A stretch of DNA of 64,000 bases from Halosimplex halophilum (GTDB lineage Archaea > Halobacteriota > Halobacteria > Halobacteriales > Haloarculaceae): assembly GCF_004698125.1 (NCBI RefSeq), contig NZ_ML214297.1, forward strand, positions 186,001-250,000. Reading direction: 5' to 3'. Within the stretch, counting starts at the first letter, position 1, and every line of letters starts with the position of its first letter. Positions 15,558-39,394 of the stretch are shown here, one piece after another. Under the pieces are notes generated by a model. That model worked only from the letters and a program-made list of their open reading frames with translations, was not told the DNA's origin and ran no database searches. The translations under genes were made by a program, and so were the position numbers.

Positions 15558-16745
15558 ATGGTAGCAATCGCGACCGACGTCAACCGGCCGTACGTGCCCG
15601 CCGACGGGGCGACGCTGACGGCGACGGTCGACGTCGAACCGGGGACTGGGAGCGGGTCCCACGAGCGGCACATCCTCCTCTGTCTGGACACGAGCGGCTC
15701 GATGGACGGGGCGAAACTCGACCGGGCCCGGGAGGGCGCCTCGTGGGTGTTCGGGCTCCTCGAACCCGACGACTACGTGGGCATCGTCGCCTTCGACTCC
15801 GACGCGGAGGTCGTCATGCGTCCCCAGCGGTGGGGGGACACCAGCCGCGAGGACGCGATGCACCGCGTCGACCAGCTGGGCGCGGGCGGCGGCACCGACA
15901 TGTACGACGGGCTCGACTCGGCCCGGACCGCGCTGGACTCGCTCTCCTACCGCCCGGAGACCGACGACGCCGTCCGCCGGGTCCTGCTGCTGTCGGACGG
16001 CAAGGACAACTCCCACGAGCCCGCGGACTTCCGGGACCTCGCGAAGGACATCGACGAGTCGGGCATCCGGATCCTCTCGGCGGGCATCGGGACCGACTAC
16101 GACGAGGAGACGATCCGCACGCTCGGGACGACCGCCCGCGGCGAGTGGACCCACCTCGAGTCGCCCGGCGACATCGAATCGTTCTTCGGGGACGCCGTCG
16201 AGCAGGCCCAGTCCGTCGTCGCCACGGAGGCCAGCCTCGAACTCGACGCCGCGGCGGGCGTCGAGGTGAGCGAGGTCTACCGCGCGCTCCCCCAGGCCCA
16301 GGAGGTCGACGTGACCTGGTCGGGCAACACGGCGACGGTTCCGCTGCCGGACCTGGCCGAGCGGGAGGACCAGCGAGTGGTCCTGAAGGTCCACGCGCCC
16401 GGGCGCGAGGAACTCGGCGAGCACACGCTGGTCGACGTGACGCTGACGGCGTCGGGCCGGCGGGCGGACGACCGGATCGCCGTCGAGTACACCGACGACA
16501 ACGCCGCACTCGCCGAGCACAACGAGTCGGTGTCGCTCGACCACCGCCAGACGGTCGTGCGCACCGAACTCGGCAAGGGCAACGTCGAGGCGGCCGAGAC
16601 GGAGGTCGAGCGGATGACCCGGATCCACGGCGAGGACACCGCCGTCGTCGAGGAGGCGAAGCGACAGACCCGCCTCGTCGACGAGGGCGGCCGGAGCGAG
16701 CGCGAGAACGCGACCCGGATCGTCGACGACTCCCGGCTAGAATGA
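15558..16745 (+). CDS. von Willebrand factor A (vWA) domain protein
   Basis: 395 residues. An N-terminal beta strand region (1-35) precedes a vWA domain with an intact MIDAS: DTSGSMDGAK (D-x-S-x-S), a Thr in GGGTDMYDG and an Asp in LLLSDGKDNS. The C-terminal part (about 230-395) is a beta-rich domain followed by a charged helical stretch, an arrangement seen in YegL-like and Mg-dependent adaptor vWA proteins. No signal peptide, so cytoplasmic. The ATG at 15558 fits an A-rich TATA-like element around 15522-15534. Its stop overlaps the kinase start by ATGA, making it the first gene of the kinase-phosphatase cluster. Confidence 0.87.
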   Translation: MVAIATDVNRPYVPADGATLTATVDVEPGTGSGSHERHILLCLDTSGSMDGAKLDRAREGASWVFGLLEPDDYVGIVAFDSDAEVVMRPQRWGDTSREDAMHRVDQLGAGGGTDMYDGLDSARTALDSLSYRPETDDAVRRVLLLSDGKDNSHEPADFRDLAKDIDESGIRILSAGIGTDYDEETIRTLGTTARGEWTHLESPGDIESFFGDAVEQAQSVVATEASLELDAAAGVEVSEVYRALPQAQEVDVTWSGNTATVPLPDLAEREDQRVVLKVHAPGREELGEHTLVDVTLTASGRRADDRIAVEYTDDNAALAEHNESVSLDHRQTVVRTELGKGNVEAAETEVERMTRIHGEDTAVVEEAKRQTRLVDEGGRSERENATRIVDDSRLE

Positions 16746-17974
16746 CGGCCGCGCCGGCGGAGGGTGATCTGGTCGTCGGCCGCTACGAGGTCGGCGAGGT
16801 GGTCGGCGAGGGCGGGTTCGCGAAGGTGTTCGACGCCGTCGACACCGAGACCGGCGAGGCCGTCGCGCTCAAGTACCCCAACTACGAGGGCAGTCAGAAC
16901 GACCGCGACATCGTCAGGACCTACTTCGAGAAGGAGGCGGAGACGCTGGCGGCGATCCGGTCGGCCGGCGGCCACCCCAACATCATGTCGCTGCGCGAGG
17001 TCGCCGAGGACGACGACGGCACGTCGGTCCTCGCCGTGGAGCTGGTCGACGGCTACGAGCTCGACGACGCCATCCGGCGGACGGGGCCGCTCGACGACAT
17101 CGACGAGGTGCGCCAGATCGGGATCGACCTCTGCGACGCGATGAGCTTCCTCCACGAGAACGAGATCGTCTACCGCGACCTGAAGCCGGACAACGTGATG
17201 ATCACACACCGCGGGGGGACGGTGACGCCGGTGCTCATCGACTTCAACACGGCGACGGGGTTCGACTCGGGGGCCGAGGCCGCCGACCAGACGACCATCG
17301 TCGGCCCGTACAAGCCCCGCGAGGTCGCCGAGGCCGACGCGACCGAGACGCGCCAGGGCCCGTGGTCGGACGTCTACTCCGTCGGGAAGATCCTGCTGTA
17401 CCTGCTCAAGGGCACGGTCCCGCGGAAGGACGGCGTCGACCCGCGCGACTTCGGCGCCGACTGCGAGCCCTATCTCGCCGAGATCGTCGAGAAGGCGACC
17501 GCCGCCGACTACGAGGAGCGCTACCGGAACGCGACGGCGATGAAGCGGGTCCTCGAGGCGCGCGACCCGAGCCCGCCGCCGTCGGCGACGGTCCGCTACA
17601 TCCAGGAGGGGGAGACCTACACGGTCTACCCCGGCGACACGATCGGGCGGCGCTACGCCGAGGGGCCGCGCTCGTCGGTCGTGATCGAGGACGAGGAGGA
17701 GTACATCTCGACGGTGCAGGTGCAGTTCGACACCGACGACGACGGGGAGTGGTTCATCCGCGACCGGAGCCTCAACGGGACGTACGTCCAGACCGGCGGG
17801 GGCTGGCAGCGCGTGCTCAGCGAGACCGGACGCGAGCGGCTGGAACAGCGGGGCGAGGACGCGACCGACGCCGAGGGGAACGTGCCGCCGGAGCTGTACG
17901 GGCTGCGCGAGGGCGACCTGATCGCCCTCGTCCACCCGAGCTACGGCGTCACCTTCGAGTTCAGCACAGCATGA
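16742..17974 (+). CDS. Hanks-type Ser/Thr protein kinase with C-terminal FHA domain
   Basis: 410 residues. Kinase domain about 8-275: Gly loop GEGGFAKVF, VALKYPN lysine, a Glu in the C helix (EKEAETLAAI), catalytic loop VYRDLKPDNVMI and metal-binding LIDFNTATG, which has DFN instead of the usual DFG. The activation segment includes GPYKPREVAE and GPWSDVYSVGKIL. From about 285 a phosphothreonine-binding FHA domain follows, with IGRRYAEGPRSSVVI and the RSLNGTYV strand. No membrane segment. ATGA overlaps join it to the vWA gene upstream and the PP2C gene downstream, so kinase, phosphatase and vWA protein should be made together. Confidence 0.9.
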   Translation: MTAAPAEGDLVVGRYEVGEVVGEGGFAKVFDAVDTETGEAVALKYPNYEGSQNDRDIVRTYFEKEAETLAAIRSAGGHPNIMSLREVAEDDDGTSVLAVELVDGYELDDAIRRTGPLDDIDEVRQIGIDLCDAMSFLHENEIVYRDLKPDNVMITHRGGTVTPVLIDFNTATGFDSGAEAADQTTIVGPYKPREVAEADATETRQGPWSDVYSVGKILLYLLKGTVPRKDGVDPRDFGADCEPYLAEIVEKATAADYEERYRNATAMKRVLEARDPSPPPSATVRYIQEGETYTVYPGDTIGRRYAEGPRSSVVIEDEEEYISTVQVQFDTDDDGEWFIRDRSLNGTYVQTGGGWQRVLSETGRERLEQRGEDATDAEGNVPPELYGLREGDLIALVHPSYGVTFEFSTA

Positions 17975-19137
17975 CCATGGACTACGCGACACACTACGAC
18001 GTGGGGGACCGCAAGCGCGACGGGGGGATCAACGAGGACAGCGTCGCGGTCTCCGTGTTCGAACAGGGCCACCGCGAGGGCTTTCTCGGGTACGACCGCG
18101 AGGGGCCCGACGGTGCGGAATCGGACGACGACCGGACCGACGAGGGCGGCGGAGACGGGGCGGCCCCGACCGCCGAGGCCGCCGACGGCGAACCGGGCGA
18201 GGGTCGGCCCGACGGCGGCCCCGACAACCGGAGCGCGGCGGTGTTCGCCCTGGCCGACGGCGCCGGGGGACACGACGCCGGCGACGCCGCCTCCTACATC
18301 GCGACGACGGCCGTCTGTGAGCGCCTCGCGGGGACCGCCGTCCGGGCGGCGCGTAGCGAGCCCGAGGGGTTCGACGTGGCCGTCGACGAGCCGCTGGCGG
18401 CCCCGCCGCGGGCCGCCGATCTGGAGGCGGCGGTCGCCGAGGCGGTCGTCGCGGCCCACCGCGAGGTCCTCGAGTACGCCGCCGACGCGGGCGAGCAGGC
18501 CCACGCGACCGTCGTCGCCGGGGTCGTCGTCGGCGGCCGCTGTCACTACGGGTGGGTCGGCGACAGCCGCGCCTACGTCGTCAACGCCGCCCGCGAGGAG
18601 ATCCTGCCGCTCACCACGGACCACGCCGTCGTCCAGCGGCTCCGGGAGGCCGGCGAGATCGACGACGTGGAGGCGCTGGTCCACCCGCGGGGCAACGAGA
18701 TCACCCGCGCCGTCGGCGGGAGCGGCCGGGACGACCCCGAGACCGCCACCGTCGACGTGGAGACGGCGACGGTTCCGCTGTACCGGGAGGACGTGCTGCT
18801 GGTGACCAGCGACGGCCTGCTGGACGCCCAGACCGAGGCGGCGAAGCTCTACGAGTGGTACGTCGACGCCGGCCGCGACGAGGAGATGGCCGCGGTGGTC
18901 CGGGACCGCGCCGTCACCGACGACGAGATCCGCGAGGCGGTGCTGTCGTCGCCGTCACTCGCCGACGCGGCCGAGCGGCTGGTCGAGCTCGCCAACGAGC
19001 GCGGCGGCAAGGACAACTGCTCGACGGTCCTGTTGCACGACGGGACGCTCCCGCCGACGCCCGAGGACCCGCCCGCCCGCGGAGCGGGCGCCGGGCCGCC
19101 GGTCGAGGACCGCGAGACCCTCGTCGAACGCGACTGA
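17971..19137 (+). CDS. PP2C/PPM-family Ser/Thr protein phosphatase
   Basis: 388 residues. Metal-dependent phosphatase motifs in order: RDGGINEDS (about 17-25), FALADGAGGHDAGD (about 92-105), GWVGDSRAYVV, LVTSDGLLD and GGKDNCSTVLL. The metal-binding aspartates are all present. An acidic, Gly/Glu-rich insert (about 46-80) splits the first strands, and the last 30 residues are Pro-rich. It probably reverses the action of the FHA-kinase encoded directly upstream (ATGA overlap). A second ATG at 17977 is possible. Confidence 0.9.
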   Translation: MTMDYATHYDVGDRKRDGGINEDSVAVSVFEQGHREGFLGYDREGPDGAESDDDRTDEGGGDGAAPTAEAADGEPGEGRPDGGPDNRSAAVFALADGAGGHDAGDAASYIATTAVCERLAGTAVRAARSEPEGFDVAVDEPLAAPPRAADLEAAVAEAVVAAHREVLEYAADAGEQAHATVVAGVVVGGRCHYGWVGDSRAYVVNAAREEILPLTTDHAVVQRLREAGEIDDVEALVHPRGNEITRAVGGSGRDDPETATVDVETATVPLYREDVLLVTSDGLLDAQTEAAKLYEWYVDAGRDEEMAAVVRDRAVTDDEIREAVLSSPSLADAAERLVELANERGGKDNCSTVLLHDGTLPPTPEDPPARGAGAGPPVEDRETLVERD

Positions 19138-19249
19138 GCGGCGACGGCCGACCGGTCGGGGACCGGCCGCGTCGGGGGCGCCCACCGTCCGACGCGACGG
19201 CGGGGCCGGGGCAACTGTTTTGATGACCGGCCCGCATATCCCGACAGCT

Positions 19250-20623
19250 ATGTCACACGGCACGAGCGGGACGGTCGAGTGCCCCCTCTGCGGGGAGGCG
19301 TTCGACCCGACCGCTGCGGGGGGCTGGTGTACGAACTCCGACTGCGGGGAATGGCAGTACGAGGCGGCCGCGCCCGAGGGGACGGACGGGGACGCCGAAG
19401 CAACGGACGGCGAGGGCGACGCGGAAGCGACGGACGGCAGGGCCGACGCGGAGCCGTCCCGGGCCGGCGTATCCGACCCTGCGGGCGCCTCGTCCGAGAC
19501 GAACGCGGCCGACGAGCCCGACTCCGGCGGCGAAGCCGGTTCGGACAGCAACTCCGGCCCCGGCAGTGACCGCGACCCGGCCGGCGACGCCGACCGCGAC
19601 CGCCGGGCGGCCGCCGACTCGGAAGCGGCCGACCCGGCCGACGCGGCCGACGGCGTCGCGGCCGCCGAGGGCGGGGCCGGCGTCGGCGCGCCGGACGCCG
19701 ACGGGACGGAACGGGCCGACACCGGAGCCGGCGAGGGGACCGCGACCGACGGCGAAACGGGGGGCGACGCGCCGGCGGAACCCCGAACGACCGAGGCCGG
19801 CACCGACGACACCGGCGCCGACGGCGCGGCGGCCGACACGGACGAGGCGGCCGACCCCGATGGGGCAACCGACGCCGACGCGGACGGAGACGCCGGCGCC
19901 GACGAGGGGGTCGACCTCGCGTGTCCGAACTGCGGCGAGTCGGTCGGCGCCGAGGACAACTTCTGCGCCAGCTGCGGGGAGGACGTGTCGACGCTACAGG
20001 CGGGGCCCCTGACGGAGTGTCCCGCCTGCGATGCCGAAGTGGACCCGGAGGACAACTTCTGCGCGTCGTGCGGCGAGAACCTCCACACCCACCGCTCGGG
20101 CGGCGGGGGCGCCCCCGCTGAGGACGACGGCACGCAGGACGACGCCACGCGGGACGACACCACGCCGGACGACGCCGCAGAGGGAGCGGCGCCCGGCGGG
20201 ACGAGCGCAGGTGAGGCCGCGAGCGCCGGGGGCGACGACCGGACGGTCGACCGAGACGACCGGACCGGCGACGCGGGAGCGGGGGCGGCGACCGGGGACG
20301 CCGACTCGACGGCGGAGGGACGGGAGTCGCTGGTGCTGGTCGTGCGCAACCGCGAGGTTGAAGTGCGCGACGGGGATACCGTCGGGAGAATCATCCGCAG
20401 TATCGTGGTGAACACGGGCGGCGACGAGGAGGAGGCGAGACAGATCCACCGCGAGCACGTGGAGTTCGTCCGCGAGGGCGGCCGGTTCCACCTCGTCGCG
20501 CTCGGGCGGAACCCGACGGTCGTCAACGGGGAGTCGCTCGACGAGGGCGAGCGCGTCCCCGTCTCGCCGGGCGACCGGATCGAACTCTCCGGCGTCGCCT
20601 CGATGCGCGTCGAAGCCCCCTGA
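19250..20623 (+). CDS. Zinc-ribbon / low-complexity / FHA domain protein
   Basis: 457 residues in four parts: an N-terminal zinc ribbon (VECPLCGEAFD...CTNSDCGEW, about 9-36), a long acidic Ala/Asp/Glu/Gly linker (about 40-220), a double zinc ribbon (CPNCGESVGAEDNFCASCGE and CPACDAEVDPEDNFCASCGE, about 223-285), a second acidic linker, and a C-terminal FHA-like domain (about 362-457) with VGRIIRSIVV, HREHVEF and NPTVVNGESL. FHA domains bind phosphothreonine, so this is a plausible receiver for the cluster kinase. The ATG at 19250 fits a T-rich element GTTTTGATG about 30 nt upstream; the ATG at 19220 would fall inside it. Confidence 0.8.
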   Translation: MSHGTSGTVECPLCGEAFDPTAAGGWCTNSDCGEWQYEAAAPEGTDGDAEATDGEGDAEATDGRADAEPSRAGVSDPAGASSETNAADEPDSGGEAGSDSNSGPGSDRDPAGDADRDRRAAADSEAADPADAADGVAAAEGGAGVGAPDADGTERADTGAGEGTATDGETGGDAPAEPRTTEAGTDDTGADGAAADTDEAADPDGATDADADGDAGADEGVDLACPNCGESVGAEDNFCASCGEDVSTLQAGPLTECPACDAEVDPEDNFCASCGENLHTHRSGGGGAPAEDDGTQDDATRDDTTPDDAAEGAAPGGTSAGEAASAGGDDRTVDRDDRTGDAGAGAATGDADSTAEGRESLVLVVRNREVEVRDGDTVGRIIRSIVVNTGGDEEEARQIHREHVEFVREGGRFHLVALGRNPTVVNGESLDEGERVPVSPGDRIELSGVASMRVEAP

Positions 20624-20650
20624 CCCCGCGGCACGGTCCGACGAGCGAGC

Positions 20651-21880
20651 ATGGATACCAGAGACACGCGCCGTGAACTCGGCAGGTCCGTCCGCCTCCT
20701 CACCGACGAGGAGCGGTGGCTGTTCGTCGGACTGGTCGCCGGCGCCGCCGGCTACCTCATCTGGCTGGCCGGCACCGGCGTCGCCGTCTCCCAGGTCGCC
20801 GACGTGGCCGTCGGCGCCTACACCGTCGACCCCTGGTCGACCGAGGCGGCCGGCCTCGCCGCCGCCCTCGCCGTCCTCTGGGTTCTCCTCCCGTCGGCCG
20901 TCGCCGTCCGCTACGTCGTCCGCAACCTCACGAACCTGCGGGGCAACGTCGAGCAGTGTTACCGCTTCGACCGGCCGCTGGTCGCGCTCGTGCCGCCGCT
21001 GGGCCTGCTGGCCGTCGCCGTCGCGGTCGGCGCGGTCCGCGGCGCCGCCACGTGGTACGTGCTCGCGCTGCTCGCGGTCGCGAACACCCTCCTGCTCGTC
21101 CGGACCGTCGCCTACGGCTACCGCGTCTACTCCTTCTCGGCGCCGCGGCTGCTGCAGGCGCTCGTGTTCATCTCGGCGGTCGTCGCGACGACGGCGACCG
21201 TCTCGCGGGCCGCGTCGCTGGGCGGCCAGGCCGCGCTGGTCGAGGCGGCCGCCGCGCGCTACGGCGTCGGCGACCTGGTCTTCGGCGAGGTGACCCGCGC
21301 CGGGCTCACCGCGCCGCTGCTGCCGCTGGTCGCGGTCGCCACCCCGGCCGTCCTCGGGCTGGCGTACGTGTGGGTCCAGCTGTTCGCCAGCCTCCTCGTC
21401 CGGGTCCGCCGGCCGGACGTGCCCCGGTCGGCGATCCGGGCCGGCCAGCGCTACCCCCAGGTCGTCCAGCCCGGCACGACCGACCGCCTGGCGATGGGTA
21501 CTGCCTCGGGCAGCGGTACCGACGACGGGTCCGCCGATGGGGTTTCGGAGTCGAGCGACTCGGCCGGCGGGTCCGCCGGGGGTTCGACCGCCGGCAGTTC
21601 GACCGCCGAGGCCGAGTCGGGCGGCAGCGACCCGGCGAGCGACGAACCCGGGTCGTCCGGCTCGGACGGGGACGCCGTCGAATCCCCGGGGCAGACGCGG
21701 GTGTTCACGCCGCCGGAGGACGCCGACGACGTGAGTCCCGAGGCCGCATCGGGCGCGACCGGGGGGACGGGCGAGCCGACGGTGAAAAACGAGTTCTGTC
21801 CGATCTGCGGGGAGACCTACGCCGCCGACGCCGACCACTCGAACTGCCCGAACTGCAACGCGGTCCTCGACAGGGACTGA
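20651..21880 (+). CDS. Multi-pass membrane protein with C-terminal zinc ribbon
   Basis: 409 residues. Residues about 20-260 contain roughly six hydrophobic segments with short loops (for example LFVGLVAGAAGYLIWLAG near the N-terminus). A Ser/Gly/Asp-rich linker (about 280-375) leads to a zinc ribbon at the C-terminus, FCPICGETY...CPNCNAVLD. The domain order suggests a membrane anchor presenting a cytoplasmic zinc ribbon. It starts 27 nt after the FHA/zinc-ribbon gene and is likely the last member of the kinase-phosphatase cluster. Family not recognised. Confidence 0.75.
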   Translation: MDTRDTRRELGRSVRLLTDEERWLFVGLVAGAAGYLIWLAGTGVAVSQVADVAVGAYTVDPWSTEAAGLAAALAVLWVLLPSAVAVRYVVRNLTNLRGNVEQCYRFDRPLVALVPPLGLLAVAVAVGAVRGAATWYVLALLAVANTLLLVRTVAYGYRVYSFSAPRLLQALVFISAVVATTATVSRAASLGGQAALVEAAAARYGVGDLVFGEVTRAGLTAPLLPLVAVATPAVLGLAYVWVQLFASLLVRVRRPDVPRSAIRAGQRYPQVVQPGTTDRLAMGTASGSGTDDGSADGVSESSDSAGGSAGGSTAGSSTAEAESGGSDPASDEPGSSGSDGDAVESPGQTRVFTPPEDADDVSPEAASGATGGTGEPTVKNEFCPICGETYAADADHSNCPNCNAVLDRD

Positions 21881-35613: not shown

Positions 35614-36882
35614 ATGAGCTTAGACGACCATGCCGAGGAGCTCGCCTCCGACCTCGGCGTCGACAAAACGGAGGTCAAACGCGACCTGGAGAACCTCGTG
35701 GAGTACAGCGTCCCCGTCGAGGAGGCCAAGGACAGCCTCCGCCGGAAGTACGGCGACGGCTCCGACGACGGCGGCCCCACCACCAAGTCCATCGCCGAGA
35801 TCACCACCGGCGACTCGTCGGTCACGGTGACCGGGACGGTCCTCACCGTGGGCAAGCGGTCGATCCGCTACCAGGGGAGCGACCACGTCATCTTCGAGGG
35901 CGAGATCGCCGACGAGACCGGCAAGATATCCTACACCGCCTGGGACGACTTCGGCCTCCAGGCCGGCCAGACGATCACCGCCGGCAACGCGGGCATCCGC
36001 GAGTGGGAGGGCGAACCGGAGCTCAACCTCGGCGAGAGCACGACCATCGGGCTGGCCGACGAGGAGCTCGACGTGGCGTTCCCGGTCGGCGGCGACGCCG
36101 GCCTGGCCGAACTCGAACCGGGCGACCGCGGCCGCAACGTCGAGGTCACGGTACTGGAAGTCGAGACCAAGACCATCGACGGCCGGGACGGCGAGACGGA
36201 GATCCTCAGCGGCATCTTCGCCGACGAGACGACGCGGCTGCCGTTCACCGACTGGGAGCCCCACGACGAGATCACGGAGGGCGCCTCGGTCCGCCTGGAG
36301 GACGTGTTCGTCCGCGAGTTCCGCGGCGCGCCCTCCGTCAACGTCTCGGAGTTCACCGAGGTACGGGAACTCGACCGGCCCGTCGAGGCGACCGAGGACG
36401 CGCCCCGCCTGGCGGTCCGCGACGCCATCGAATCGGGCGGCCTGTTCGACGTGGAGCTGGTCGGCAACGTCATCGCCGTCCGGGACGGCTCCGGGCTCAT
36501 CGAGCGCTGTCCGGAGTGTGGCCGCGTCGTCCAAAACGGCCAGTGTCGCAGCCACGGCGCCGTCGACGGCGTCGACGACCTGCGCATCAAGGCGATCCTC
36601 GATGACGGCACCGGGACCGTGACGGCCATCCTCGACGACGAACTCACCGAGGAGGTCTACGGCGGCGACGTGGCGGACGCGAAGGAACACGCCCGCGACG
36701 AGATGGACCAGGAGGCGGTCGCCGACGCCATCCGCGAGACGCTCGTGGGGCGGGAGTTCCGCGTCCGCGGCTCGCTGTCGGTCGACGAGTACGGCGCCAA
36801 CCTCAACGCCCGGTCGTTCGACGAGACCGACGACGACCCGGCGAGTCGCGCCGCCGACCTGCTGACGGAGGTCCGGCCATGA
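35614..36882 (+). CDS. rpa: Replication protein A (ssDNA-binding, OB-fold) with zinc finger
   Basis: 422 residues. Coats single-stranded DNA in replication and repair. After an N-terminal helical region (LDDHAEELASDLGVDKTEVKRDLENLV) come three predicted OB folds (about 60-160, 170-260 and 270-400), seen as strand sets around SSVTVTGTVLTVGKRSIRYQG, VEVTVLEVETKTIDG and VELVGNVIAVRDGSGLIERC. A zinc-finger motif CPECGRVVQNGQCRSHG sits at about 299-315, as in RPA1/RPA3-type haloarchaeal proteins. First gene of a three-gene operon joined to the RPA-associated protein by an ATGA overlap. Confidence 0.9.
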   Translation: MSLDDHAEELASDLGVDKTEVKRDLENLVEYSVPVEEAKDSLRRKYGDGSDDGGPTTKSIAEITTGDSSVTVTGTVLTVGKRSIRYQGSDHVIFEGEIADETGKISYTAWDDFGLQAGQTITAGNAGIREWEGEPELNLGESTTIGLADEELDVAFPVGGDAGLAELEPGDRGRNVEVTVLEVETKTIDGRDGETEILSGIFADETTRLPFTDWEPHDEITEGASVRLEDVFVREFRGAPSVNVSEFTEVRELDRPVEATEDAPRLAVRDAIESGGLFDVELVGNVIAVRDGSGLIERCPECGRVVQNGQCRSHGAVDGVDDLRIKAILDDGTGTVTAILDDELTEEVYGGDVADAKEHARDEMDQEAVADAIRETLVGREFRVRGSLSVDEYGANLNARSFDETDDDPASRAADLLTEVRP

Positions 36883-38642
36883 GCGGCTCGGAGGACCAGG
36901 GCGGCGCGGGACGGCGCGAGGTCGCCTACCGCGTGTTCGCCGCGGAGTTCGACGACGCCGACTTCTCCTACTCCGAGAGCGACGAGGAGCGCGCCCCGAA
37001 CTACGTCGTCTCGCCGACGGGCGGCCGGATCAACCGGCTGTTCGTCGTCGGCGTCCTCACCGAGGTCGAGAACGCCAGCGAGGACGTGCTCCGCGCCCGG
37101 GTCGTCGACCCGACCGGCGCCTTCGTCGTCTACGCCGGCCAGTACCAGCCCGACGCCCGGGCCTTCTTCGAGCGCGCCGAGCCGCCGCTGTTCGTCGCCG
37201 TCACCGGGAAGGCCCGCACGTTCCAGCCCGACGACTCCGACGTGACCTACACCTCGATCCGGCCGGAGAACGTCAACGAGGTCGACGCAGAGACGCGGGA
37301 CCGCTGGACGGTCGGCACCGCCCGCCAGACGCTCGACCGCGTGCGGACGATGGCCGACGCGCTCGCGCGCGACCAGCGGGGCGACGAGCTCCGCGCGGCG
37401 CTCGAAGCGGAGGGCGTCGACACCGGGCTCGCGGCGGGCGTCCCGCTGGCCATCGACCACTACGGCACGACGGCGGCCTACCTCGACGCGGTGCGGAACA
37501 CGGCGGTCCAGGCCGCCGAGGTCGTCGCCGGCGAGCGCGAGGAGGTCGAACCCCACTCCGCCTCGCCGGACGCCCCGGGCGAGGCGGACCTCGCGACGCT
37601 GGCCGCGCTCGACGTGACCGCGAGCGTCGGCGGCGAGACGACGGACATCGGCGGCGCGGTCGAGACGGAGCCGTCGGGGGCCTCCGGCACCGCCTCGACG
37701 GACGCGGGGACCGACACGACCGAGACGGAAGCGGCGACCGGCACCGACACCGCGAGCGCGGACGCGAGCGGCGAGACGGCGTCCGCGGGCGGCGAAGCGG
37801 CCGGCGGCGAGAGCGCCACTGCGAGCGCGGAGGCGGACGAGACCGGGTCCCCTTCCACCGACTCCGAGCCGGCATCCGCCGAATCCGAACCGGTCGGTGC
37901 CGAGGGAGCGACCGGGGCCGAGGCCGAACCGTCCGGGTCCGGGTCGACGGAGTCCGCCGCAGTCGAGGCCGACCCCGCTCCGGCCGGCGAGAGCGCCGGG
38001 AGCGACGATATCGGTTCCGACGCCGGCGCCGATGCGGTAGACACGGGCGTCGACTCCGACGGCGACGACCTGGAAGACTTCGACGGCGAGTTCGAACTCG
38101 ACGAGGAGGAGCGCGAGGAGATCGAGGAGGAGTACGGCACGAGCTTCCAGAGCGGCACCGAGGTCGACGAGCCCGGCGAGGCCGGTATCGAGACGCCCGA
38201 CCCCGAGGAACTCGCCGAGGCCGAAGCGGAGGCCGGGGCCGGCGAGTCGCCGTCGGCGACCGCCGAAACCGGCAGTGAGGCGGACGAACCCGCGTCGGAA
38301 GCCGCCGAGACGGCCACCGGGACCGCGGAAGAACCGGCGACGGAGACGACCGACGAACCGGCGACCGACACCGGGCCGGAGTCGGAGCCGGAACCGGACA
38401 CCGCCGACGAGGTCGACTCCGCCGACGCCGAGGAGCCGGCGGAGGACGTCGACGTCGAGGACGCGGTGATGGACGCGATGGCCGAACACGACGACGGCGA
38501 GGGCGCCCACGCCGACGAGATCGTCGAGGCGGTGACCGCGCGGACCGGCGCCGCCGAAGAGGAAGTCCGGGAGGCCATCCAGGACGCGCTGATGGGCGGG
38601 CGCTGCTACGAGCCCGAGGACGACGTGTACAAGCCGATCTGA
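36879..38642 (+). CDS. RPA-associated protein (RPAP, COG3390 type) with long acidic linker
   Basis: 587 residues. An N-terminal OB-like domain (about 12-135; REVAYRVFAAEFDDADFSYSES, RINRLFVVGVLTEVEN) is followed by a helical stretch to about 220. Residues about 225-520 are a Ser/Thr/Glu/Ala/Gly low-complexity linker with no cysteine. The C-terminal about 65 residues (VDVEDAVMDAMAEHDD...EVREAIQDALMGGRCYEP) form a winged-helix like the RPA2 C-terminus. In Haloferax such proteins bind their cognate RPA. ATGA overlap with rpa and a 1-nt overlap (TGATG) with the phosphoesterase gene. Confidence 0.87.
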   Translation: MSGSEDQGGAGRREVAYRVFAAEFDDADFSYSESDEERAPNYVVSPTGGRINRLFVVGVLTEVENASEDVLRARVVDPTGAFVVYAGQYQPDARAFFERAEPPLFVAVTGKARTFQPDDSDVTYTSIRPENVNEVDAETRDRWTVGTARQTLDRVRTMADALARDQRGDELRAALEAEGVDTGLAAGVPLAIDHYGTTAAYLDAVRNTAVQAAEVVAGEREEVEPHSASPDAPGEADLATLAALDVTASVGGETTDIGGAVETEPSGASGTASTDAGTDTTETEAATGTDTASADASGETASAGGEAAGGESATASAEADETGSPSTDSEPASAESEPVGAEGATGAEAEPSGSGSTESAAVEADPAPAGESAGSDDIGSDAGADAVDTGVDSDGDDLEDFDGEFELDEEEREEIEEEYGTSFQSGTEVDEPGEAGIETPDPEELAEAEAEAGAGESPSATAETGSEADEPASEAAETATGTAEEPATETTDEPATDTGPESEPEPDTADEVDSADAEEPAEDVDVEDAVMDAMAEHDDGEGAHADEIVEAVTARTGAAEEEVREAIQDALMGGRCYEPEDDVYKPI

Positions 38643-39394
38643 TGGGCGTCGAACCGATCCCCGACGAGCCCGCGGCGGTCGGGACCTGCGGCGGCGAGCG
38701 GGTGCTCGTCGTCGCGGACTTCCACGCCGGCATCGAGGCCGGACTGCGCCGCGAGGGGGTCGAACTCCCCGACCACGCGCCCGACCGCCGCGAGTCGCTG
38801 TGCGCGCTCGTCGACGCCGAGCGGCCGGACCGGCTCCTCTTCCTCGGCGACCTCGGCCACTCGATCGGCGACCCCGGCCGCGACGAACGGGAGGAGGTCC
38901 TCGCGCTGTTCGACGCGCTCCCGGACCTGCCGGTCACGCTCGTCAAGGGCAACCACGACGGCGACGCCCAGTCGGTCCTCGAACGGGTCGACCAGCCCGT
39001 CGAGGTCACGCCCGGTCACGGCGTCCGGATCGGCGAGGTCGGGTTCGCCCACGGCCACACCTGGCCGAGCCCGGACGTGCTCGCCGCCGATACCGTCTGC
39101 GTCGGCCACGAACATCCGGTCGTCCGCCTCGAAGACGAGGTCGGCGGCGCCCGCGTCGAGCGGGTGTGGCTCCGGGGCGACCTCGACCCCGAACCCTTCC
39201 GGGAGTTCCACGGCGGCGACCTCGCCGTCGACGGCGAACTCGTCGTCTTCCCGGGGTTCAACGACCTTTCCGGCGGCACCTGGGTCAACGTCGCCGGCCA
39301 GGAGTTCCTCGCCCCGTTCCTCCCCGACGGGCTGGTCGACGGCGAGGCGTACCTCCTCGACGGTACCCGCCTGGGCGACTACCGCCGGGTCTGA
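38642..39394 (+). CDS. Calcineurin-like metallophosphoesterase of the RPA operon
   Basis: 250 residues. Metallophosphoesterase motifs: VVADFHAGIEAG (D-x-H), LLFLGDLGHS (GD), LVKGNHDGD (GNHD), FAHGHTWPS and CVGHEHPVVRL (GH-x-H). These match the archaeal YfcE/MJ0037-like group. Gene order rpa-rpap-phosphoesterase is found in other haloarchaea. The target may be nucleic-acid ends or a nucleotide; not resolved. Translationally coupled to the RPA-associated protein. Confidence 0.85.
   Translation: MGVEPIPDEPAAVGTCGGERVLVVADFHAGIEAGLRREGVELPDHAPDRRESLCALVDAERPDRLLFLGDLGHSIGDPGRDEREEVLALFDALPDLPVTLVKGNHDGDAQSVLERVDQPVEVTPGHGVRIGEVGFAHGHTWPSPDVLAADTVCVGHEHPVVRLEDEVGGARVERVWLRGDLDPEPFREFHGGDLAVDGELVVFPGFNDLSGGTWVNVAGQEFLAPFLPDGLVDGEAYLLDGTRLGDYRRV

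Follow-up and report, generated by a model that had tools for sequence, protein, structure and literature searches.

A haloarchaeal kinase, phosphatase, vWA and zinc-ribbon-FHA gene module that likely works like the ArnA-ArnB switch of Sulfolobus

When a haloarchaeal gene cluster encodes a protein kinase, a protein phosphatase and phosphothreonine-reading FHA domains, an obvious question is whether these genes make up a switch of their own and, if so, which of the characterized systems it resembles. Such a cluster is found in the 64,000-nucleotide stretch of Halosimplex halophilum DNA that was analysed here (contig NZ_ML214297.1, positions 186,001 to 250,000; hereafter the window, in the numbering of which coordinates are given). 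It consists of five genes, all confirmed on the + strand, which encode a vWA protein (15558-16745), a Hanks-type Ser/Thr kinase with a C-terminal FHA domain (16742-17974), a PP2C-type Ser/Thr phosphatase (17971-19137), a zinc-ribbon protein with a C-terminal FHA domain (19250-20623) and a multi-pass membrane protein with a C-terminal zinc ribbon (20651-21880). The first-pass annotation of this DNA knew of no described archaeal counterpart with a phosphothreonine reader. One has in fact been described: Sulfolobus possesses ArnA (zinc finger plus FHA), ArnB (vWA), the kinase ArnC and the phosphatase PP2A (PMC12852372, PMC6509490, PMC4858521). There, the zinc finger of ArnA holds unphosphorylated ArnB loosely, ArnC phosphorylates Thr residues of the C-terminal bundle of ArnB, the FHA domain of ArnA then binds tightly, and PP2A is the reported counter-phosphatase (PMC12852372). 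The ArnA and ArnB genes often form one predicted operon and are never found inside pilus or archaellum loci (Makarova et al., PMC4858521). Here we argue that the haloarchaeal locus probably encodes a phosphothreonine switch complete in itself, with a mode of action like that of the ArnA-ArnB module.

Do the five genes belong together in the first place? The ATGA overlaps between the vWA and kinase genes (16742-16745) and between the kinase and PP2C genes (17971-17974) are both real, and gaps of 112 and 27 bases precede the zinc-ribbon-FHA gene and the membrane gene, respectively. Gene prediction with a codon-bias caller yielded these five genes as well, which is a consistency check only, four of the five having been in its starting training set; the caller performed poorly on some lower-GC loci (L111, L115, L133, L134), for which tblastn placements were used. 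The first-pass annotation had allowed that the genes might not be conserved together in other haloarchaea. For four of them, this concern can be laid to rest: among 294 Halobacteria genomes, high-scoring homologues of the vWA, kinase, PP2C and zinc-ribbon-FHA proteins occur in one identical set of 39 genomes and nowhere else. In these genomes, the vWA profile scores 490 bits or more, against no more than 283 bits in eight others, the PP2C profile at least 163 bits, against at most 56 elsewhere, and the zinc-ribbon-FHA profile at least 95 bits, its matches outside the set being of the zinc-ribbon type only and not exceeding 64 bits; the cut-offs were chosen after these gaps were seen, but the gaps are wide. 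Full-length kinase homologues are confined to the 39 genomes, a 40th match (G037) being partial (3.3e-12). The chance of two identical 39-genome sets, phylogeny ignored, corresponds to a log10 P of about -49, and it is not credible that the same four sets arose by chance. The first four genes are a true module. The five, initially taken as a fixed set, are not, inasmuch as only 26 of the 39 genomes, all from a single family, have the membrane gene. Since the 39 genomes, about one in eight of the sample, are spread over at least three families and distributed patchily within genera, the module appears to have been gained and lost as a unit.

The linkage of the genes within these genomes is informative too. 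The triad of vWA, kinase and PP2C genes is linked in every locus opened, and there is a single genome (G201) in which the zinc-ribbon-FHA gene is unlinked, lying about 70 kb from the triad. The membrane gene adjoins the zinc-ribbon-FHA gene even where the latter has moved away from the triad (L035, G201), which suggests two sub-units, the triad and a reader/membrane pair. One genus has three genomes (G041, G059, G115) in which the membrane gene stands apart from the other module genes.

Which known protein is the vWA protein related to? This protein of 395 residues (Pfam VWA, 6.6e-18) carries an intact metal ion-dependent adhesion site (MIDAS) with the motif D44-T-S-G-S48 (15687-15701); D44, S46, S48, T113 and D147 are unchanged in 47 of 47 homologues. 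When a profile built from 18 haloarchaeal vWA homologues was searched against the PDB, the best sequence match was ArnB of Sulfolobus acidocaldarius (8S05 chain A, E 2.3e-22), the next match outside the Arn proteins being at E 2.4e-16. The AlphaFold2 model predicts strands at residues 3-27, the vWA domain at 36-217, further strands at 225-311 and four helices at 315-386, that is, a split beta-sandwich around the vWA domain followed by a four-helix C-terminal region, the order of parts found in ArnB. The predicted helical region (16500-16715) is placed like the regulatory helical bundle of ArnB (PMC12852372). The top three Foldseek matches of the model are a bacterial vWA protein (4fx5) and two ArnB chains (8s05). 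In haloarchaea that do not have the kinase, a more distant ArnB-like vWA gene adjoins an Hsp70-like gene, with a GrpE-like gene nearby (L132:2413-6050, L136:3197-7817).

The zinc-ribbon-FHA protein (457 residues; Pfam Zn_ribbon_3, 2.7e-15) is laid out like ArnA: an N-terminal zinc ribbon with C11, C14, C27 and C32 (19280-19345; all four Cys invariant in 19 of 19 sequences), a long acidic linker, two further zinc ribbons (Pfam DZR, residues 225-275; 19922-20074) and a C-terminal FHA domain (residues 379-446; 20384-20587; Pfam, 3.1e-8) with invariant G379 and N421. The arrangement of an N-terminal Cys4 and a C-terminal FHA is present across the alignment of the 19 homologues, and we propose that the N-terminal ribbon corresponds to the zinc finger with which ArnA docks on ArnB. 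In one locus (L036:6273-6569), the zinc-ribbon-FHA gene has shrunk to 99 residues, with the loss of much the greater part of its FHA domain and of the Gly-Arg pair therein; the kinase and membrane genes beside it look full-length.

The writer and the eraser of the presumed switch have the residues that such enzymes need. In the kinase (410 residues; Pkinase, 2.6e-32), K44, D146, N151 and D167 are found in 61 of 61 homologues and E65 in 60. Its FHA domain (residues 300-351; 17639-17794; Pfam, 1.1e-6) retains the GR, S and NGT signatures, G302, R303, N345, G346 and T347 being invariant in the same 61 sequences and S323 kept in 59; the position of the FHA "His" is occupied by Gln in 36. All 61 have DFN or DFT in place of DFG, and HRD is usually YRD. 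Because the Lys, the catalytic Asp, the Asn and the metal Asp are all kept, we regard these substitutions as a trait of the family and not as decay. The phosphatase (388 residues; Pfam PP2C_2, 8.6e-11) has its metal-site residues unchanged in 40 of 40 homologues. Open reading frames, Pfam matches and homologue alignments thus bear out the first-pass annotation of five genes, of ATGA overlaps among the first three and of an intact MIDAS, and the catalytic and FHA residues are intact as well. The nearest named relatives of the kinase come from Halosimplex genomes (87-96% identity). In two order-level families, the PP2C protein is extended at its C-terminus by an FHA-like part, and many loci continue with a second kinase-FHA gene. 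One locus of Halophilic archaeon J07HX64 (L039:8982-12056), in a genome that has no recognizable module vWA gene, contains a kinase matched only from residue 75, followed by PP2C, and is perhaps a degraded module.

The membrane protein (409 residues) is less well defined: several hydrophobic segments lie between residues 23 and 252 and are followed by a disordered linker and a C-terminal Cys4 ribbon for which Pfam gives only a sub-threshold zinc-ribbon match, and the predicted model (mean predicted local distance difference test score, pLDDT, 48.3) is too poor for a fold search.

What, then, could the kinase phosphorylate? About 10 residues from the C-terminus of the vWA protein, the tail contains T386-R-I-V (16713-16724), and T-x-[VI]-[VFY] recurs there in the homologues (TKIV, TVVY, TVVF). 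Among 15 representatives below 70% identity, nine have the motif, whereas 0.44 would be expected if the tails were shuffled. The linker of the membrane protein contains T349-R-V-F (21695-21706), and T-[RS]-V-[FY] is present in 10 of the 10 homologues inspected, the surrounding linker being otherwise unalignable; six of six representatives have it, with 0.0075 expected from shuffled linkers. The P values of these comparisons overstate the case, because the motif was picked after the alignments had been viewed and the shuffle tests ignore common descent. The stronger argument is that the motif recurs in two unrelated proteins of one module. In the window as a whole, one instance of the general motif is met with in roughly every 900 residues, and only two of 73 proteins have it within their last 20 residues. 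We therefore treat T386 and T349 as candidate phosphosites. Such sites resemble known acceptor sites (ETTSVF) of the FHA-linked bacterial switches GarA and OdhI. One membrane-protein homologue (L130:5215-6483) has the linker motif twice, TRVFSP and TSVFTP, as might result from duplication of the phosphosite.

The conserved linker motif raises the possibility that the kinase, the phosphatase and the FHA proteins act mainly on the membrane protein, with the vWA protein as a regulator and membrane transport or an envelope function as the output. The invariance of T-R-V in the linker and the pairing of the zinc-ribbon-FHA and membrane genes away from the triad would fit this scheme, as would two metagenome-assembled genomes (MAGs) in which the kinase, FHA and membrane genes are together and adjacent vWA and PP2C genes are missing; one of these MAGs, however, has the vWA and PP2C genes on another contig. 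Moreover, since 13 of the 39 module genomes do not have the membrane gene, its product cannot be the universal target, and we consider this scheme unlikely.

The ArnA-ArnB-like switch that we favour can be envisaged as follows. The kinase would phosphorylate Thr on the vWA tail, and two FHA domains, one on the zinc-ribbon protein and one on the kinase itself, would bind the resulting phosphothreonine, so that a loose complex, with the N-terminal zinc ribbon docked on the vWA protein, would turn into a tight one, whereas PP2C would remove the phosphate. In genomes with the membrane gene, the TRV[FY] site in the linker of its product, assumed to be cytoplasmic, would serve this kinase and these FHA domains as well, and the complex could thereby be recruited to the membrane. 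A ligand or a downstream target is probably held at the MIDAS of the vWA protein. By analogy, the output might be the expression of surface structures or a stress response. As for the first-pass picture of a phosphothreonine writer, eraser and reader around a MIDAS-bearing vWA protein, its parts, residues and co-occurrence hold up, and who phosphorylates whom is what we infer.

The likeness to the Arn system lies in the split-beta-sandwich vWA protein with C-terminal helices and its zinc-finger/FHA partner, and in a Hanks kinase that writes and a Ser/Thr phosphatase that erases a phosphate on Thr. Unlike in Sulfolobus, the kinase and phosphatase genes share an operon with the ArnAB-like pair, the zinc ribbons of the FHA protein number three, and there are an optional membrane partner and a tail Thr motif, with no known link to archaella. 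A number of observations weigh against so close a parallel. The haloarchaeal kinase carries an FHA domain of its own, whereas ArnC has been described without one, and the phosphatase is PP2C instead of PP2A. The profile of the zinc-ribbon-FHA family matches ArnA solely via the zinc finger, through the third ribbon, its FHA domain not being recognized as that of ArnA, and the Pfam C-terminal ArnB domain has no match in the vWA protein up to E 0.05; for these two reasons, orthology to the Arn proteins is not established. Confidence in the vWA model is moderate (pLDDT 73.8), and its alignment to 8s05, spanning about 410 columns, has a low template modelling score of about 0.45, which reflects uncertain domain packing. 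Six of the 15 diverse vWA homologues do not have the strict tail motif (most of these tails still have a Thr at or beside the motif column), and the disregard of shared ancestry in the shuffle tests counts here as well. In the loci opened, no effector gene is kept beside the module across genera, save for the membrane gene and the second kinase-FHA gene. Finally, the mechanism is computational, with predicted roles for its components.

If the vWA protein is related to ArnB, as the PDB profile and Foldseek matches indicate, could the module be the archaellum-repression system of haloarchaea, functionally orthologous to ArnA-ArnB and in control of archaellin expression? Archaellin genes are present in 38 of the 39 module genomes as compared to 197 of the 255 others (Fisher P 0.002), an association that is not corrected for phylogeny and is too weak and confounded to assign motility. 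Furthermore, module genome G231 has no archaellin, most archaellin-bearing haloarchaea have no module, and no archaellum gene was identified near the module in the window. ArnA itself is not confined to motility: in S. islandicus, it represses DNA-damage genes and acts in the DNA damage response (PMC10470591). It seems quite unlikely that archaellum repression is the function of the haloarchaeal module.

Are there closer relatives among bacteria? The kinase, PP2C phosphatase and vWA protein were likened at first to E. coli YegI, YegK and YegL. This and other kinase-PP2C-vWA sets do bring the three biochemical gene types close together, but YegL is a short vWA protein and the annotated neighbourhood of the YegI-PphC(YegK)-YegL genes has no FHA protein. 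We reject kinship with the Yeg set: direct BLASTP comparison gave E values above 1 for the kinase and the phosphatase, and YegL matched over a 22-residue MIDAS stretch only (0.005). Another parallel is offered by a bacterium, MAG PMG_196 (L065:9986-16001), in which genes for a kinase-FHA, a PP2C, an ArnB-like vWA and a double zinc-ribbon-FHA protein lie side by side, followed by an AIM24-family gene. Shared with the haloarchaeal module are the FHA domain on the kinase, the combination of a double zinc ribbon with FHA and a Thr-rich vWA C-terminus, which ends in TKKTKRLA in the bacterium; different are the gene order, the long N-terminal part of PP2C and the AIM24-family neighbour, and identities are 24-31%. 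No membrane zinc-ribbon gene was found among the neighbours scanned in this locus. In the GarA/OdhI switches of Actinobacteria, too, a Thr near a terminus is phosphorylated, but it belongs to the FHA protein itself and the output is on metabolic enzymes, whereas the haloarchaeal Thr residues are in partner proteins; OdhI is phosphorylated at Thr14/Thr15 near its terminus and dephosphorylated by a phospho-Ser/Thr phosphatase (PMC2784874). The PpkA/PppA/Fha pathway of type VI secretion does not fit, the VI_FHA model scoring 16.6 bits against a cut-off of 120, with no secretion genes recognized at the locus. Kinase, PP2C and vWA neighbours have also been reported in bacterial conflict systems, including linked GTPase systems (PMC7159879), and the kinase domain of the module scores in PADLOC kinase models, among them PD-T4-6 and mad6. 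These matches, however, represent generic Hanks-kinase similarity and are limited to the kinase domain, the vWA, PP2C, zinc-ribbon-FHA and membrane proteins being unmatched in PADLOC, and no nuclease, protease, GTPase or other effector gene is recognized at the locus. We thus reject the identification of the module with a defence or conflict system as highly improbable.

The surroundings of the module consist of gene types unrelated to it: a DUF7125/KaiC-like protein, a ParA-like ATPase and an acetyltransferase upstream, and an FG-GAP repeat protein and an acetyl-CoA-synthetase-like enzyme downstream. A plasmid-borne cassette was considered and rejected, given that none of 72,556 plasmid records matched. 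Elsewhere in the window, three more genes are tightly packed with overlapping ends (35614-36882, 36879-38642, 38642-39394).

No description of a haloarchaeal kinase-FHA-PP2C-vWA operon was found among open-licence papers, and an operonic kinase-PP2C form in which the kinase carries FHA and a membrane protein joins as partner appears to be undescribed in those searched. A 2019 study in the Journal of Biological Chemistry noted that most of the archaeal genomes analysed had no FHA proteins, the studied ones belonging to a family of the class Thermoprotei (PMC6509490). As a tentative extension, about which we have considerable doubt, the two FHA readers might choose between the near-identical motifs of the vWA tail and the membrane protein, phosphorylation moving an ArnAB-like complex between cytosol and membrane, and the cassette, which lineages would acquire and lose as a whole and which bacteria share in outline, might be related to the ancestor from which the Sulfolobus Arn network arose.

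The molecular detail of phosphothreonine signalling in archaea comes almost only from Sulfolobales. In the module considered here, writer, eraser, reader and substrate form a compact set that some 13% of the sampled Halobacteria genomes possess, Halosimplex included. Because it comes with exact predicted phosphosites and a clear comparison to ArnAB, the generality of ArnAB-type switches in archaea, and in bacteria, becomes directly testable.

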